Assembly: GCF_003574965.1 (NCBI RefSeq)
Contig: NZ_CP032317.1
Coordinates: 3,534,001 to 3,598,000, forward strand
DNA length: 64,000 nt
Reading direction: 5' to 3'
DNA from: Hymenobacter oligotrophus
GTDB taxonomy: Bacteria > Bacteroidota > Bacteroidia > Cytophagales > Hymenobacteraceae
The position numbers and the translations under genes were made by a program. Positions 2 through 33,152 of the stretch are shown here, one piece after another. Within the stretch, counting starts at the first letter, position 1; the number at the start of each line of letters is the position of its first letter. The notes beneath the pieces are model-generated. The model saw only the letters and a program-made list of their open reading frames with translations. It searched no databases and was not told where the DNA came from.

Positions 2-457
2 GGAAACCCGTTGCCACTGCCAGCCTACCGGCAAGCCAACCTGAAGGGTTCGTTGCTCGATGTATCAGCCACTCTCGAATACAACTTCTTCGACTTTCAT
101 AACCGACGCGACAAGGTCCGTTTCACACCTTATGTGTACACGGGCATTGCTGGTTTTCTAGGCTTTACCCGTTTATCAGGCCCGTTGCCCGGTTTTGATG
201 AAAAAAGCAACACCCTAGGGCTGGCTATTCCGGCGGGGGTAGGGCTCAAACTGGCGCTGTCGCGGCGTTGGAACCTAGGGCTCGAAACCGGCGCGCGGCG
301 GGCACTTACCGATTTGCTCGACCACGTTAAAGACCAAAGCCCGGCCGTAGCCAACCGCTTCGATAAGGATTGGTATTATTACTCAGGGGTAAGCGTGTCG
401 TTTACTTTCTACAAAATCAACTGCCCCGATTCGTACGGCAACAAGCCGCGCCTGTAG
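2..457 (+). CDS. outer-membrane beta-barrel protein (DUF6089-like), 5' truncated
   Basis: The reading frame is already open at the left window edge, so only about 150 C-terminal residues are seen. They alternate aromatic and polar residues as beta strands do (TPYVYTGIAGFLGF, RWNLGLETGARRALTD, YYYSGVSVSFTFYKINCP). The Phe-Tyr-Lys-Ile-Asn-Cys-Pro ending and the position just before uppS and bamA match the DUF6089 porin-like family common at this locus in Bacteroidota. A role in the outer membrane is inferred; the exact function is unknown. Two CCTAGG hexamers (214, 274) each encode Leu-Gly. The signal peptide lies outside the window. Confidence 0.6.
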   Translation, partial: GNPLPLPAYRQANLKGSLLDVSATLEYNFFDFHNRRDKVRFTPYVYTGIAGFLGFTRLSGPLPGFDEKSNTLGLAIPAGVGLKLALSRRWNLGLETGARRALTDLLDHVKDQSPAVANRFDKDWYYYSGVSVSFTFYKINCPDSYGNKPRL

Positions 458-529
458 CGCTAAGGCACTCAAATCCGGGCGTATGCAACCATTTGCGTAA
501 CTTGCGGCCTCTTTACGCAAACACTACGC

Positions 530-1276
530 ATGTCGGTCCCATCAGCTATAGACCCTTCACGTATCCCCTCTCACGTAGCCGTAATCATGGACGGCAACGG
601 GCGGTGGGCGAAGAAGCGCGGCGGACTGCGCATCTTCGGGCACCAAAGTGCCATTACCGCTGTTCGCGAGACGGTGGAGGCTGCTGCCGAGCTTGGCGTA
701 TCGGTCCTGACGCTGTACGCTTTTTCAACCGAAAATTGGGGCCGTCCGAAGCACGAGGTGATGGCCCTGATGCAGTTGTTGGTACACACCATCCGGCAAG
801 AAACGCCTACGCTGCTGAAAAACAGCATCCGGCTGCAGGCCATTGGCGATACTTCGCAACTACCACAGGCGTGCCAGCGCGAGTTGGCCGAAGCCATGGA
901 GCTAACTGCCGCCGGAACGCGCACCACTTTGGTGCTGGCCCTTAGCTACAGCGGCCGTTGGGATTTGGCGCAGGCCGCCCGCAAGCTGTCGGTTGATGTG
1001 GCTGCCGGCAAGGTGATGCCCGATGCTGTAACCGAGGATGTGTTAGCTGGTTATTTGGCAACGGCGGGCATGCCCGATCCTGAGCTGCTAATTCGGACCA
1101 GTGGGGAGCAGCGCATCAGCAATTTTTTGCTGTGGCAACTGGCCTACACCGAACTTTATATTACCGAGCTGTTGTGGCCCGATTTCCGCCGCGAACATTT
1201 CTACGAAGCTGTTCTGGCTTACCAAAGCCGCGAACGGCGTTTTGGAAAAACCAGTGAGCAACTGACCGTTTCGTAA
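530..1276 (+). CDS. uppS: isoprenyl transferase (undecaprenyl diphosphate synthase)
   Basis: Cis-prenyltransferase that condenses isopentenyl diphosphate onto farnesyl diphosphate to make the C55 lipid carrier for peptidoglycan and O-antigen. The N-terminal signature HVAVIMDGNGRWAKKRG contains the metal-binding aspartate (about residue 21). The C-terminal signature PELLIRTSGEQRISNFLLWQ is also complete. At 248 residues the length is typical. The ATG start lies directly before the motif-bearing N-terminus, and the gene ends 10 bases before bamA, so co-transcription is likely. Cytosolic and membrane associated. Confidence 0.95.
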   Translation: MSVPSAIDPSRIPSHVAVIMDGNGRWAKKRGGLRIFGHQSAITAVRETVEAAAELGVSVLTLYAFSTENWGRPKHEVMALMQLLVHTIRQETPTLLKNSIRLQAIGDTSQLPQACQRELAEAMELTAAGTRTTLVLALSYSGRWDLAQAARKLSVDVAAGKVMPDAVTEDVLAGYLATAGMPDPELLIRTSGEQRISNFLLWQLAYTELYITELLWPDFRREHFYEAVLAYQSRERRFGKTSEQLTVS

Positions 1277-1286
1277 GTTTCCTTCG

Positions 1287-3824
1287 ATGAGTCCTTTCTT
1301 TTTGCGGCTGAGCAGTGTAATGCTGGCCGGGCTGCTGCTAGGGTTGGCCAAGCCGCTTAGCGCACAAACGCAGCCGGCCGGCAGAGCTACCAGCCAAGAG
1401 CCGCAGCGCTACGAAATTGGCGGTATCACCGTCAGCGGAGCCCGTTTTTTGGATGCCAATACGCTGATAGGCCTGACGGGCCTAAAGGTTGGCGACCCTG
1501 TTTCGATACCGGGCGAAGAGCTGGGCCGTGCAATTCGGAAGCTGTGGGACCAAGGCATCCTGGGCGACGTGCAGGTGGTGGTCGACCGCGTTGAGGGCAA
1601 CCGAGTTTTCCTCGATTTTCAGTTGAAGGAACGTCCTCGCCTCTCCAAAATTTTCTTCACGGGCATCAGTAAAACCCAAGCCGACGACCTGCGCAACAAG
1701 ATTAAAATCGTGCGCGGCAAAGTGGTTACGGATGCCTTGCTCAGCAACACGCGCCAAGCCGTTCGGAAATTCTACACCGATAAAGGCTTCATGAACGTGA
1801 AGGTGAACATCGCGCAAGAGGCCGATTCGACGCTGCCGAACAGCGTGGAATTGGTCATCGATGTTGACAAGGGCGATAAAGTTCGCATCTCGGATATTGC
1901 TTTCATCGGGAATGAAGCCATTGCCGATGGCAAGCTGAAAGGCAAGATGAAAAAGACCAAGGAGAAGAAACCTTACAAGTTTCTGAACTCCGGTAAGTTT
2001 CAGAAAGCCGAGTTCGAGGCCGACAAAGAGAAGGTAATCGAGTTCTATAACTCGCAAGGCTTCCGCGACGCCATCATCACGGCCGATTCGCTGGTTACGG
2101 TAAAAGACAAGAAAGGCGAAGCTGAAAAGCTACAGCTGCGCATATACGTGGAGGAGGGGCCGAAGTACTACTTCCGCAACATTACCTGGAACGGTAACTA
2201 CCTCTACGACGACAAAACGCTGGCCTCGATTCTGGGTATCAAGAAAGGGGATACCTACAGCAAAGAGTCGTTGGACAAGCGCCTGAATTACAATCCCACG
2301 GGCCAAGACGTAACGTCGATCTACATGAACGACGGCTACTTGTTCTTCCAGATCGAGCCCGTAGAAACCCGCGTGGAAGGCGACTCAATCGACATTGAGA
2401 TGCGCCTGACCGAGGGCGTGCAGGCCCGCGTGAAAGACATTAACATTGCCGGCAATACCAAAACGTCGGACCACGTAATCCGGCGCGAACTGCGTACCCT
2501 GCCCGGCGACAAGTTTAACCGCGAGCTGCTTATTCGCTCGCAGCGCGAACTGGCTTCCCTAGGTTACTTCGACCCGGAGAAGGTAGGCATGAACCCTGTG
2601 CCCAACCCGGCCGATGGCACCGTGGACATTAACTACTCCGTGGTTGAAAAGCCTTCTGACCAGATTACCCTTTCGGGTGGCTGGGGTGGCTACGCCGGGT
2701 TTATCGGCACGGTGGGCCTGGTGTTCAACAATTTCTCGCTGCGCAAGGCCTCGGAGCTGCGCAATTGGCGCCCTGTGCCCGGCGGCGACGGGCAACGCCT
2801 GGCCCTGAACGTGCAGGCCAACGGCTTGCAATTTCAGTCGTATTCGTTTTCGTTCACGGAGCCTTGGCTAGGGGGGCGTAAGCCCAATGCGCTTTCGTTT
2901 ACCCTGAACAAGAGCATTCAGCGCTTCTCTACGGGCAGCAACTTTGATGTGCGTGCGGGCAGTTTCATCAAGGTAAACAGCGCTTCGGTGAGCTTAGGCC
3001 GCCGCCTGCGCTGGCCCGACGACTACTTTACGCTCAGCAACAGCTTGTCGTTTAGCCAATACAAACTGAAGGACTATCCGTACTTCAGCGGCTTTAGCAC
3101 CGGCAACGCCAACAACTTCACCTTCAATACCACGCTGGCGCGTAACAGTACCGACAACCCCACCTTCACGCGCCGGGGCTCGGCCTTGTCGCTGTCGCTG
3201 AACCTGACACCGCCGTACTCAGTATTCCCGGGGGCGCACCCCAATGTAAACGAGTGGGTGGAGTTCCACAAATGGATGTTCGACGCCTCGTGGTTTACGC
3301 CCCTAGGTGGCAAGTTTGTGCTGAACACCCGGGCCCACTTCGGGTTTATCGGGCGCTACAACCAAAACCGTCAGATTGGCCCGTTCGAGCGGTTTAAGCT
3401 GGGAGGGGCGGGCCTGGGCTTTGGCGGCGCGGCCAACTTCCTGGTTGGTACCGAGTTTGTGGGCCTGCGCGGCTACGACGACCCCAACGAGCAGTTCGCC
3501 ATTCAGAACCCCAACTCGTCGGGTGGTGTGGCCTACAACAAGTACGTGATGGAGTTGCGCTACCCTGTGTCGCTGAACCCGGCGGCCACGGTGTATGTGC
3601 TGGGCTTTGCCGAAGCCGGTAACGCCTTCGAAAATTACTCGACCTACAACCCCTACAAGCTGTACCGCTCGGCGGGCGTGGGGGCGCGTATTTTCATGTC
3701 GGCATTTGGTTTGCTAGGCTTCGATTACGGATACGGTTTCGATACCGTAACACCGTATGCGCCTACCAACGGCAAGCAAGACCGTGGCAAATTCCACTTC
3801 ATCATCGGCCAGCAAATTCGCTAA
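1287..3824 (+). CDS. bamA: outer membrane protein assembly factor BamA
   Basis: 845-residue Omp85 protein that inserts beta-barrel proteins into the outer membrane. The first ~27 residues form a signal peptide ending near LSAQ. Residues ~45-480 carry successive POTRA-type repeats (for example ISDIAFIGNEAIADGKLKGK and VKDINIAGNTKTSDHVIRRE), and ~490-845 form the 16-strand barrel ending in FHFIIGQQIR. The gene follows uppS by 10 bases and is followed by two Skp/OmpH periplasmic chaperones, the usual Bacteroidota order. The predicted barrel is rich in Asn, Tyr and Phe, as is normal. Confidence 0.95.
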   Translation: MSPFFLRLSSVMLAGLLLGLAKPLSAQTQPAGRATSQEPQRYEIGGITVSGARFLDANTLIGLTGLKVGDPVSIPGEELGRAIRKLWDQGILGDVQVVVDRVEGNRVFLDFQLKERPRLSKIFFTGISKTQADDLRNKIKIVRGKVVTDALLSNTRQAVRKFYTDKGFMNVKVNIAQEADSTLPNSVELVIDVDKGDKVRISDIAFIGNEAIADGKLKGKMKKTKEKKPYKFLNSGKFQKAEFEADKEKVIEFYNSQGFRDAIITADSLVTVKDKKGEAEKLQLRIYVEEGPKYYFRNITWNGNYLYDDKTLASILGIKKGDTYSKESLDKRLNYNPTGQDVTSIYMNDGYLFFQIEPVETRVEGDSIDIEMRLTEGVQARVKDINIAGNTKTSDHVIRRELRTLPGDKFNRELLIRSQRELASLGYFDPEKVGMNPVPNPADGTVDINYSVVEKPSDQITLSGGWGGYAGFIGTVGLVFNNFSLRKASELRNWRPVPGGDGQRLALNVQANGLQFQSYSFSFTEPWLGGRKPNALSFTLNKSIQRFSTGSNFDVRAGSFIKVNSASVSLGRRLRWPDDYFTLSNSLSFSQYKLKDYPYFSGFSTGNANNFTFNTTLARNSTDNPTFTRRGSALSLSLNLTPPYSVFPGAHPNVNEWVEFHKWMFDASWFTPLGGKFVLNTRAHFGFIGRYNQNRQIGPFERFKLGGAGLGFGGAANFLVGTEFVGLRGYDDPNEQFAIQNPNSSGGVAYNKYVMELRYPVSLNPAATVYVLGFAEAGNAFENYSTYNPYKLYRSAGVGARIFMSAFGLLGFDYGYGFDTVTPYAPTNGKQDRGKFHFIIGQQIR

Positions 3825-31684: not shown

Positions 31685-31763
31685 AGCTTTTAGCTGTTCG
31701 TTTTCAGCTATTAGCTACCTAGGTCGTAAGCTGATTGCTAATGGCTGACAGTTGACAGCTCAG
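31685..31763. repeat. AGCTATTAGC-type intergenic dyad reaching into the cysH 3' end
   Basis: AGCTTTTAGCTG/CAGCTATTAGCT on one side and AAGCTGATTGCTAATGGCTG plus ACAGTTGACAGCT on the other make an imperfect inverted repeat with ACCTAGGT in its middle (31717). The right side covers the last codons and the stop of cysH. Confidence 0.6.
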
Positions 31764-32481
31764 GAGGCGTAGTGGCGTGCAGGCCGCACTCCTTCGCCGA
31801 CTGATCTTCCCACCACCAGCGGCCGGCCCGGAAGTCTTCGCCGGGCTTCACGGCCCGGGTGCACGGCGCGCAGCCAATGCTCACAAAGCCTTGCAAGTGC
31901 AGGGGGTTGTGCGGAATGCTGTACTCGCGGATGAAGGCCCAGGTCTGCTCCCAAGTCCAGTCGAGCAGCGGGTTCACCTTCAGCAGCTGGTAGCTGGCGT
32001 CGTATTCGGCCACCTGCATGCCGGTGCGGTTGGCCGATTGCTCAGCCCGAATGCCGGTAACCCAAGCCTCTTTACCAACCAGCGCGCGGCTCAGCGGCTC
32101 CACTTTGCGCACGTGGCAGCAGGCCTTGCGGGCGTCTACGCTTTCGTAGAACCCGTTCGGGCCTTGGCGCTCTACCAAGGCAGCTACCTGCCCGTGCTCG
32201 GGGTAATATGCCCGGATGCGCTTGCCGTATTTGAGCACGGTTTTGCTCCAGGTAGCATAGGTTTCCTGAAAATTCCGGCCCGTGTCGAGCGTAAATACTT
32301 CGATGGGTAAATCGTGGGCAAAAATTAGGTGCGTAATTACCTGATCTTCCAATCCGAAAGAGGTAGAAAAAGCGGCTTTGCCAGCAAATTCAGTTGCAAT
32401 TAGGCGCAGCGTATCCAACGCATCAGCACCAATTAATTGCTGACGAATTTGCGCCACCTGAGCATCGATTAACGTCGACAT
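31738..32481 (-). CDS. cysH: phosphoadenylyl-/adenylyl-sulfate reductase, iron-sulfur (APS reductase) type
   Basis: 247 residues from the ATG at 32481 (STLIDAQVAQIRQ); 18 upstream codons are open but lack a better start. Reduces activated sulfate to sulfite. FSTSFGLEDQVITHL is the PP-loop-like site, LDTGRNFQETY the family motif and ECGLH (Cys232) the catalytic cysteine. Cys pairs at 121-122 (KACCHVRK) and 204/207 (GCAPCTR) ligate a 4Fe-4S cluster, typical of enzymes that accept APS directly; no APS kinase gene is present. The final STVSH residues are encoded by an intergenic repeat. A riboswitch and a leader ORF precede it. Confidence 0.93.
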   Translation of the reverse strand: MSTLIDAQVAQIRQQLIGADALDTLRLIATEFAGKAAFSTSFGLEDQVITHLIFAHDLPIEVFTLDTGRNFQETYATWSKTVLKYGKRIRAYYPEHGQVAALVERQGPNGFYESVDARKACCHVRKVEPLSRALVGKEAWVTGIRAEQSANRTGMQVAEYDASYQLLKVNPLLDWTWEQTWAFIREYSIPHNPLHLQGFVSIGCAPCTRAVKPGEDFRAGRWWWEDQSAKECGLHATTPPELSTVSH

Positions 32482-32595
32482 GCGCAGCAGGGCTACGACC
32501 TGTTTGCCCAAGGCAAAGCAGATCTGATAAGACAAGAAGAGAGGGGTGCTGGAGGAATAGGCGGCGAACGAAGCTCAAGCGGCCAAGCCAAACGG

Positions 32596-32629
32596 ACCTA
32601 GGGCATGCTCCGGCGGTAGGAGCCTAGGT
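32596..32629 (-). promoter_or_regulatory. hairpin with paired CCTAGG sites between leader ORF and cysH
   Basis: ACCTAG(G) and GCTCC on one side pair with GGAGC and CTAGGT on the other, with a small GCAT bulge. It lies in the 188-base stretch between the leader ORF stop and the cysH ATG. No U tract follows, so if it terminates transcription it is not a classic intrinsic terminator. Confidence 0.45.
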
Positions 32630-32669
32630 GTTGGCGTTCCAGCAAGCGGGCAGGGAGGGTGCGAAAACC

Positions 32670-32780
32670 TCAACAACACGCGCGGCGCATCGGCATGCAA
32701 CAACAGCACAGGCTGTTGGAGCCGAAAAGGCCCTGCTGCGGGGCAGCGGCGGTAGCGCGGGGTGTGATGATGAGGTTCAC
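32670..32780 (-). CDS. candidate poly-cysteine leader peptide upstream of cysH
   Basis: 36 codons from a GTG at 32780 to TGA at 32672-32670. The C-terminus is LCCCCMPMRRACC: four consecutive Cys codons, then Met-Pro-Met-Arg-Arg-Ala, two more Cys codons and the stop. Six of the last twelve codons are Cys and two are Met. The Cys4 codons overlap a 7-bp hairpin (CAACAGC / GCTGTTG, 32701-32718). The ORF begins 8 bases after the closing helix of the SAM riboswitch. Poly-Cys leader ORFs that sense cysteine supply before sulfur genes are known in mycobacteria. Translation here is inferred; the GTG start is the weakest point. Confidence 0.6.
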   Translation of the reverse strand: MNLIITPRATAAAPQQGLFGSNSLCCCCMPMRRACC

Positions 32781-32787
32781 GGCGTGC

Positions 32788-32908
32788 GTTGTTTTTATAT
32801 GGTCAGGAATTAGCTACGCTGACCTTTCGGTTGGCACCGTTCGGGACTTTCCCGTGGTTGCCGGCGCTTCACGGAGCCTTTCTCTCCACGCCTCTGTATA
32901 AAAACAAT
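32788..32908 (-). promoter_or_regulatory. SAM riboswitch (S-box/SAM-I clan) of the sulfate assimilation genes
   Basis: Read on the minus strand the segment shows the S-box signature blocks in order: AGAGGCGTGGAGAG, GGCTCCGTGAAG, CGCCGGCAACC, an internal GGGAAAGTCCC hairpin and ACGGTGCCAACC. The closing helix is TTGTTTTTATA (32907-32897) with TATAAAAACAA (32799-32789), 11 bp. GGTCAG and CTGACC near the 3' side can also pair. It lies about 310 bases before cysH and 15 bases after a promoter. The variant (SAM-I versus SAM-I/IV) needs a covariance search. Confidence 0.85.
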
Positions 32909-32928
32909 CCTGGGAAGAATTGATGAAG

Positions 32929-32961
32929 CAAAGGTAGGTAAGCAATTTTTGTATTTCCAAA
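32929..32961 (-). promoter_or_regulatory. Bacteroidota-type promoter for the riboswitch-cysH transcript
   Basis: On the minus strand: TTTG (32961-32958), 21 bases, TACCTTTG (32936-32929). Transcription would begin near 32922, just ahead of the riboswitch. Confidence 0.75.
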
Positions 32962-33152
32962 TTATTCTTTTCAACTAATATCATCTAGCTACTGCAGCAA
33001 TCGTTTGCAGCGTTAATTGTTATTCAAAAACGAAATGTCGATAGCAAATACTGGGCTGTTTGTGACAGGTATTTTGCTGCTTGGTAAAAGATTGGCGCCG
33101 TTTTATTTCAGGTAGCCTGCAACCATTGCACTGGCGCGTAGCTCCTGGGCGC

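Follow-up and report, generated by a model that had tools for sequence, protein, structure and literature searches.

Short ORFs in which several successive Cys codons lie near the stop are described upstream of the sulfate-assimilation genes in actinobacterial cys operons, where no terminator hairpin follows and Rho-dependent termination was proposed; the available text of that work also mentions tnaC (Seliverstov et al. 2005, PMC1262725). In Rhodobacterales, uORFC-8-2 upstream of cysS contains two tandem conserved Cys codons and, according to the accessible part of the paper, is proposed to act by ribosome-mediated attenuation with an intrinsic terminator and no riboswitch (PMC8632094). Control of a short uORF by a riboswitch is described for M. 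tuberculosis ppe2, where a translational OFF riboswitch for B12 acts on a uORF that matters for the downstream gene and whose stop overlaps the gene start (termination-reinitiation); the text available describes no amino-acid-sensing codon run (Kipkorir et al. 2024, PMC11260477). The SAM-II riboswitch of metA in the alphaproteobacterium Sinorhizobium acts on a start region upstream of the real gene start, with an in-frame AUG2 74 nt downstream and, as far as the available text goes, no Cys leader (PMC9373788). A flavobacterial transcriptome study refers in its accessible part to leader-peptide attenuation before amino-acid operons in general terms only (PMC9723704).

The window analyzed here is a 64,000-nt stretch of Hymenobacter oligotrophus contig NZ_CP032317.1 (positions 3,534,001 to 3,598,000). 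On its minus strand an S-box aptamer is followed by an 11-nt gap, a leader ORF, a spacer and cysH (Table 1), the first gene of the run cysH-cysD-cysN-cobA-cysJ. The earlier note had placed a 36-codon ORF between a SAM riboswitch and cysH, and its coordinates proved exact. We consider it somewhat probable that the locus is a two-input, cis-acting sulfur sensor, in which the S-box would gate a Cys/Met leader with AND logic and Rho-dependent output. The aptamer, 113 nt long, is a full-length covariance-model match above the curated gathering score (44.4 bits) and the sole Rfam match above gathering score within the window; by sequence it is a predicted SAM riboswitch that should bind SAM and control expression. 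The leader ends in CCCCMPMRRACC-stop. The ATG start of cysH was chosen from MSTLI, conserved within the genus. A stem related to the spacer stem-loop was seen by eye in the genus alignment, and a scan of the minus strand from 32400 to 33150 of the window found no terminator-like site.

Table 1. Features of the cysH leader region (window coordinates)
Feature	Position	Strand	Basis
SAM-I (S-box) riboswitch aptamer	32792..32904	-	Rfam RF00162, 67.1 bits, model 1-108/108
Extended P1 helix, 3' strand UAUAAAAACAA, A-rich, end 8 nt before leader start	32789..32799	-	MFE fold, pairs 32897-32907
Extended P1 helix, 5' strand UUGUUUUUAUA	32897..32907	-	MFE fold
Leader ORF, GTG start, 36 codons, MNLIITPRATAAAPQQGLFGSNSLCCCCMPMRRACC	32670..32780	-	sequence; in-frame conservation
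Cys4 codons TGC TGT TGT TGC	32697..32708	-	sequence; codon columns
Final two Cys codons TGT TGT, adjoining stop	32673..32678	-	sequence
Untranslated spacer, 188 nt, leader stop to cysH start	32482..32669	-	sequence
Spacer stem-loop ACCTAGGCTCC...GGAGCATGCCCTAGGT	32596..32629	-	sequence; without long U-run behind
cysH (adenylyl-/phosphoadenylyl-sulfate reductase)	31738..32481	-	PF01507; NF002537 and TIGR02055 over cut-off

The Cys-run leader is real and beyond chance. Six Cys are found among its last 12 residues, and among the 1,068 ORFs of 12 aa or more read from either strand of the window, no other has even five there. When the 310 nt between the aptamer end and cysH were shuffled 4,000 times with dinucleotides preserved, no shuffle gave at least six Cys and three gave at least five, so the earlier judgment that such a run is hard to obtain by chance was borne out. 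The cysH S-box is present in seven of the eight genus genomes, and the terminal Cys run is kept in frame in all seven, one of them having three rather than four Cys in the first block; absence of the run from relatives had been set in advance as grounds for rejecting the leader. The final two Cys codons are TGT in all seven. Over the last 16 codons of the cysH class, pN/pS was 0.39 in frame versus 0.97 and 1.04 out of frame, and the five leader classes gave in-frame values of 0.39, 0.66, 0.64, 0.47 and 0.37 versus 0.72-2.28. Entire ORFs showed a weaker contrast (0.64-0.90 in frame), with one wrong frame lower (0.74) in the ATP-grasp class. Alignment columns with at least 70% Cys contained codons other than TGT/TGC in only 5 of 178 cells, variation being almost confined to exchange between these two. 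This codon-level conservation and the recurrence of the run in further families and ahead of additional sulfur genes support the leader-peptide reading of the earlier note.

Five S-boxes were detected with Rfam in the H. oligotrophus genome, and four of them had a Cys-run ORF 7-11 nt behind the aptamer: the window copy, and leaders ending in AVCCCCCW before metY, GCACCCCC before an amino-acid permease gene and CCCLGLAVAACCC before a RimK-like ATP-grasp gene. The device thus stands before four gene families in one genome; the fifth S-box, at metH, had no Cys leader at that position. The four peptides have, by eye, little in common beyond the terminal Cys run. The same four classes recur among the 35 S-boxes of the eight genus genomes, not each in every genome, giving 27 leaders (two to four per genome). 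The 30 best-scoring S-boxes of 150 genomes of the family, a set biased to high scores, added metY, ATP-grasp and cysH cases from two further genera. Among named genomes reached through CysH (the best 80 of at least 582 relatives), S-boxes were scanned on 33 of the 80 loci, chosen partly for a cysH Cys leader, and all 68 S-boxes listed were read; the S-box and leader pair occurs before metY in Rufibacter, Pedobacter (two), Mucilaginibacter, Parapedobacter and H. nivis. Before cysH the pair was found in H. nivis (L228) and one Chitinophagales MAG (L176). A further sample, spread evenly over the class, comprised 159 genomes, and 130 of the about 144 listed places outside the own genome were read; at the listed places that were read, Cys leaders accompanied 8 of 11 metY S-boxes (seven directly, one at 92 nt) and none of 76 metH S-boxes.

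Altogether, 62 direct leaders were counted at 262 distinct Bacteroidia S-boxes (37 genome handles; L046 and L177, from one genome, counted once); a single genus contributes 27 of the leaders, and the genus and family sets together 41, hence they are not independent. The rule required a start 2-15 nt past the aptamer, a length of 12-75 aa and at least three Cys in the last 15 residues, which excluded the indirect-type leaders L201, L204, L212, L288 and L352. Gene classes were assigned by short hand-chosen motifs and translation, not by per-gene family searches. By the nearest motif within 650 nt, leaders were present at 10/10 cysH, 31/43 metY, 8/9 permease (APC) and 7/7 ATP-grasp S-boxes, and at 0/100 metH, 0/24 cystathionine synthase (CGS), 0/6 CGL-like, 0/4 metX-like, 0/3 metE, 0/3 cysteine desulfurase, 0/2 hom and 0/2 HcyBio S-boxes; the figures were 2/7 where a motif lay only farther off and 4/42 where none was found. 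With motifs taken from anywhere in the stretch, leaders were at 0/104 metH, 0/19 CGS, 0/7 hom and 2/6 metX S-boxes. In L221, a leader S-box first classed as metX, another ORF intervenes. A slightly different rule gave direct leaders at 11 of 68 and 42 of 65 S-boxes, versus means of 0.49 and 1.55 and maxima of 2 and 6 in 100 shuffles.

S-boxes with Cys-rich leaders also precede TonB-dependent receptor genes, candidate sulfur-compound importers, in Pedobacter caeni (L204) and a Chitinophagaceae MAG (L212), both recognized by PF07715, and in Hymenobacter nivis (L195, by eye). Another Hymenobacter nivis S-box (L224) is followed by a leader ending in RCCGAMMPGRGC and a gene of the carboxymuconolactone-decarboxylase family (PF02627).

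The 62 leaders are 26-54 codons long, begin with ATG (39) or GTG (23) and start 3-14 nt past the aptamer, at 7 or 9 nt in 46 cases; in 61 of them 0-2 residues separate the last Cys from the stop. They typically end in sequences such as MRTPMCAMRCCCC, ICMCCCIQ and CCMCICCPCC. Cys and Met make up 35.7% and 10.3% of the last 15 residues and 1.1% and 1.8% of the remainder. Met, which is absent from the selection rule, has 96 codons in frame versus 5 and 3 out of frame, counts to be read with the reservation that a Cys run by its nature makes ATG less likely in the other frames and that many sequences are related. Since Met is enriched besides Cys, including in Met/Cys-rich ends without a Cys run, the leader seems adapted to both sulfur amino acids and chiefly to Cys. 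Sensing of Cys and Met by the leader, with predicted ribosome stalling, is likely from these sequence features. The Cys4 codons had also been placed in a hairpin. In folds made without shuffles, this hairpin forms in the window copy and, with some variation, in six cysH leaders of the same genus; L062 from another genus had none over its Cys codons, and the tail plus 60 nt of 48 leaders folded no better than shuffles (mean z -0.21), therefore the hairpin is not a general feature.

The P1 helix of leader S-boxes mostly ends with the A-rich UAUAAA. In the 62 leader S-boxes P1 could be extended past the Rfam ends by a mean of 2.32 pairs versus 1.04 with swapped flanks, a value unreached in 300 swaps among leaders (maximum 1.48), while the 201 other S-boxes gave 0.75 versus 0.62. 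In 46 of 62 leaders, 5-7 nt remain between the extended helix and the start codon. Leader presence followed the P1-end type: 59/83 for UAUAA, 0/145 for GAURAG and 3/34 for other ends (262 S-boxes; Fisher 1.8e-35, relatedness ignored), and 24 of the 83 UAUAA-type S-boxes have no Cys leader under the fixed rule. Both the Met enrichment and the placement of P1 to reach the leader start go beyond the earlier note. According to the available text of PMC6847099, Bacteroidetes mRNAs have no Shine-Dalgarno sequences, and RNA structure as well as upstream nucleotides, e.g., A at -3, tune initiation, so that an extended P1 helix should hinder initiation and, when closed by SAM, should block leader translation. 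It is very probable, judging from position and conservation, that the ORF is a leader and the S-box its translational OFF switch. In L305 (class sample, f63/g103), a UAUAA-type S-box has no leader, and a gene at 282-1373 (+) encoding a metX-like alpha/beta-hydrolase starts 11 nt behind the aptamer. This layout is as expected for a translational switch and provides a natural control for such use of the UAUAA P1 type.

The proposed sensor would work in three steps. SAM would close the extended P1 over the A-rich stretch before the leader start, switching leader translation off. At low SAM the leader would be translated, its terminal Cys (and Met) codons gauging charged tRNA-Cys and tRNA-Met, and shortage would park a ribosome at the leader end. 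In tnaC, a parked ribosome blocks Rho; likewise, the ribosome parked here would keep Rho from terminating in the untranslated spacer, whereas Rho would terminate if the leader is untranslated (SAM high) or the ribosome is released at the stop (Cys plentiful). As net logic, expression of cysH, metY, the permease and ATP-grasp genes would require a simultaneous shortage of SAM and Cys/Met. We infer this because of the partition of genes, sulfate reduction and direct sulfhydrylation being needed also when Cys is short; it is about as likely as not. Cystathionine synthase takes its sulfur from Cys and can use it, metH would need only low SAM, and both would be under S-box control alone. With slightly less confidence still, we propose a natural RNA AND gate in Bacteroidia, in which the SAM riboswitch decides whether a Cys/Met leader is read, and low SAM together with low Cys/Met opens sulfate reduction, metY, amino-acid uptake and the ATP-grasp gene, leaving metH and cystathionine synthase to SAM only.

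For the output step, Rho-dependent attenuation, which PMC1262725 suggests for actinobacterial Cys leaders, is preferred, tentatively. The Rho RNA-binding domain is encoded in the own genome. The distance from leader stop to gene start is 43-386 nt in 61 loci (114-386 nt in most S-box loci), therefore too long for simple reinitiation in most of them. The C/G ratio of the spacers was 1.2-2.2 in seven of eight groups (1.61 in the cysH class), 1.04 in APC, and 1.23 in ATP-grasp versus 1.25 in the gene. Since the reference values are 1.1-1.3 in genes and other S-box leaders and 1.24 in the first 60 nt past S-boxes outside the leader list, only some spacer groups stand out, and the C/G argument for Rho is weak. 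In g1 metY loci the best 80-nt C-over-G stretch was mostly lower than inside the gene. Spacer pairing was modest (mean z -1.0; spacer MFE z -0.92; 48 leaders). RNAalifold found no convincing common fold in the APC and g3 metY alignments; the folds it returned for cysH, metY and ATP-grasp were those of close relatives only.

The same two sensors could instead have a translational output, a ribosome stalled on the Cys codons remodelling the RNA and freeing the downstream start, as in the model for mycobacterial poly-Cys ORFs. A few loci, e.g., L076 and L099, which have short spacers, show complementarity between the Cys codons and the region of the gene start, and the g1 cysH and APC classes had lower duplex energies than swapped partners. 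Over 61 loci, RNAduplex of leader tail and gene start gave a permutation p of 0.0056 against swapped partners, which is confounded by GC content and relatedness. However, against shuffled gene-start regions the mean z was only -0.45 (48 leaders), and most g3 metY and Sphingobacteriales metY loci had duplexes weaker than swapped partners; the tail against the leader's own start gave a mean z of -0.69. Pairing of Cys codons with the gene start was rejected as a general mechanism, and given also the long spacers, a translational output is unlikely.

Less probable still is a SAM-gated translated relay or decoy whose Cys/Met-rich C-terminus would act by nascent-chain arrest or as a thiol/oxidant sensor and not through tRNA charging. 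This reading would fit the clustering of Cys at the extreme C-terminus and the UAUAA-type S-boxes that keep a mini-ORF without a Cys run. Such mini-ORFs, where present, follow the aptamer in Algoriphagus, Cecembia, Cyclobacterium and Mariniradius. On the other hand, the peptide context around the Cys run varies by class and family while codon identity is kept, and Cys leaders without an S-box occur before cysH, as expected of a free-standing Cys sensor. In the 80 named CysH loci, ORFs with at least four Cys in the last 12 residues end less than 300 nt from cysH in 10 loci, with four matches over all further 300-nt bins to 3.6 kb; a five-Cys rule gave six versus zero. This rule does not capture H. 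nivis, and the case of L165 is weak. Rfam detected an S-box at the leader in two of the ten loci (L110, L146) and one far upstream in L100, and no S-box in the locus of the other seven. In three f5 species, Cys7 leaders precede cysH without an S-box. Since Cys leaders stand at cysH with and without it, the module is separable from the riboswitch. A serial layout was found in L352/L071 and L201/L146, where the S-box is followed by a terminator-like hairpin with a U-run (by eye) and the Cys leader lies 103-112 nt past the aptamer; P1 gating is therefore not universal. L201, from Sediminibacterium, has the pair before cysH in this indirect layout.

Several related arrangements were observed. At metY S-boxes L188, L175, L206, L214 and L293, all of UAUAA type, a short ORF without a Cys run lies 6-9 nt behind the aptamer, and some of the Cys-run-less metY mini-ORFs end Met-rich (ICMSMRMR, SMYRIML). 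In L198 (Prolixibacteraceae MAG) and L199 (Draconibacterium), an S-box precedes a homocysteine biosynthesis gene (PF01837); the mini-ORF found 11 nt past the aptamer ends in NMCMR or NMCMRQRF and is possibly related to the leader. Upstream of cysH in L099, L100, L105, L107, L111 and L146, a TCTACCA/GGTAGACT-like sequence, palindromic by eye in some, lies at or near the promoter of the leaders in Chitinophagaceae-like records and is possibly an operator. CysH of L109, L142 and L152, records titled Beijerinckiaceae, Roseiarcaceae and Bosea, shares 56-60% identity with the Bacteroidota query, which may reflect transfer or mis-binning.

Classical attenuation, in which leader and gene would be separated by an intrinsic terminator and an antiterminator, has a precedent in the terminator-type Cys attenuator proposed before cysS in the accessible text of PMC8632094, and a hairpin with a T-run was matched in 9 of 61 loci. 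Five of these belong to the APC class, five of its eight loci having a match somewhere, at differing places. The matches in the 61 loci are dispersed and do not recur at equivalent positions in relatives, and no conserved intrinsic terminator was found behind the leader; spacer hairpins in the low-GC loci inspected had no U-run behind them. The terminator and antiterminator with U-run of trp/his-type attenuators were thus not recognized, and this mechanism is improbable. Between aptamer and leader end, the scan found no intrinsic terminator in 49 of 50 cases, though it missed the L201 hairpin and U-run visible by eye. It found one in 21 of 83 S-boxes outside the leader list, chiefly CGS and hom and hardly any metH; these 83 include a few leader loci, e.g., L195 and L224. 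Since terminators are few there as well, their lack is not special to leaders.

A functional Cys-rich microprotein, such as a metal or thiol chaperone, next to sulfur genes would account for the in-frame constraint on the ORF end, but it is very improbable, as the leaders of the own genome share only the Cys run, lengths and N-termini differ, and the window peptide has no NCBIfam match. Chance or a composition artefact, although TGYTGYTGYTGY occurs 189 times in the own genome, can practically be dismissed in view of the shuffles, reverse strand, binned upstream controls, conservation in relatives and gene-specific distribution. As a pattern for further S-box-less leaders in the own genome, TGYTGYTGYTGY was uninformative, and ten of the 189 stretches, viewed closely, contained no convincing leader. 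The one short ORF among the ten with a CCCC-rich end, L394, is antisense to a long reading frame and was discarded.

If the two-input reading is true, the locus would represent a recurring arrangement in which a riboswitch gates a leader peptide that senses amino acids, one that is easy to read out genetically, and the cell may combine SAM and Cys readings before sulfur uptake. The S-box regulon would then be split into SAM-only and SAM-plus-Cys branches matching enzyme chemistry. The leader would also help, as a sequence mark, to annotate the ATP-grasp gene and transporters related to sulfur (permease, TonB-type receptors). The question of how Cys leaders without terminators produce their output, raised for Actinobacteria in 2005 in the available text of PMC1262725, becomes testable in a second phylum and in bacteria that are not pathogens.

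The earlier note knew of no Cys leader combined with a SAM riboswitch in Bacteroidota, and the open PMC texts covered here do not contradict this. The pairing is absent from the accessible parts of PMC12713380, PMC6429828, PMC3766115, PMC7366714 and PMC9723704, and in open PMC texts, as far as available, we found neither a combination of S-box and Cys leader nor Bacteroidota Cys leaders described. Poly-Cys attenuators and riboswitch-gated uORFs are each known; their joining appears new in that we found no description of it. Unlike the usual SAM-I riboswitch, the window aptamer, which matches the RF00162 model over its full length, precedes the start of a leader ORF and not a terminator or the gene's own start. 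As in ppe2, the aptamer helix is placed, by position, to occlude a uORF start, whereas the Bacteroidia leaders end in Cys/Met codons and their stops, 43-386 nt before the gene, neither overlap nor adjoin its start. The predicted action of a SAM riboswitch on a start region upstream of the real gene start is shared with Sinorhizobium metA, and tandem conserved Cys codons and proposed ribosome-mediated attenuation with uORFC-8-2. Mycobacterial poly-Cys leader ORFs of cys operons, in which Canestrari et al. are said to have taken up the question of terminator-less Cys leaders in 2020, are reportedly called leaderless; the window ORF, judged from its sequence, lies behind the aptamer and not at the 5' end of the transcript. 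As in the actinobacterial leaders, a short Cys-run ORF kept in relatives precedes sulfur-assimilation genes, and no conserved intrinsic terminator separates leader and gene. Unlike them, the Hymenobacter-type ORF belongs to Bacteroidota, lies behind an S-box with P1 reaching towards its start, is enriched in Met and precedes not only cysH but also metY, a permease gene and an ATP-grasp gene.
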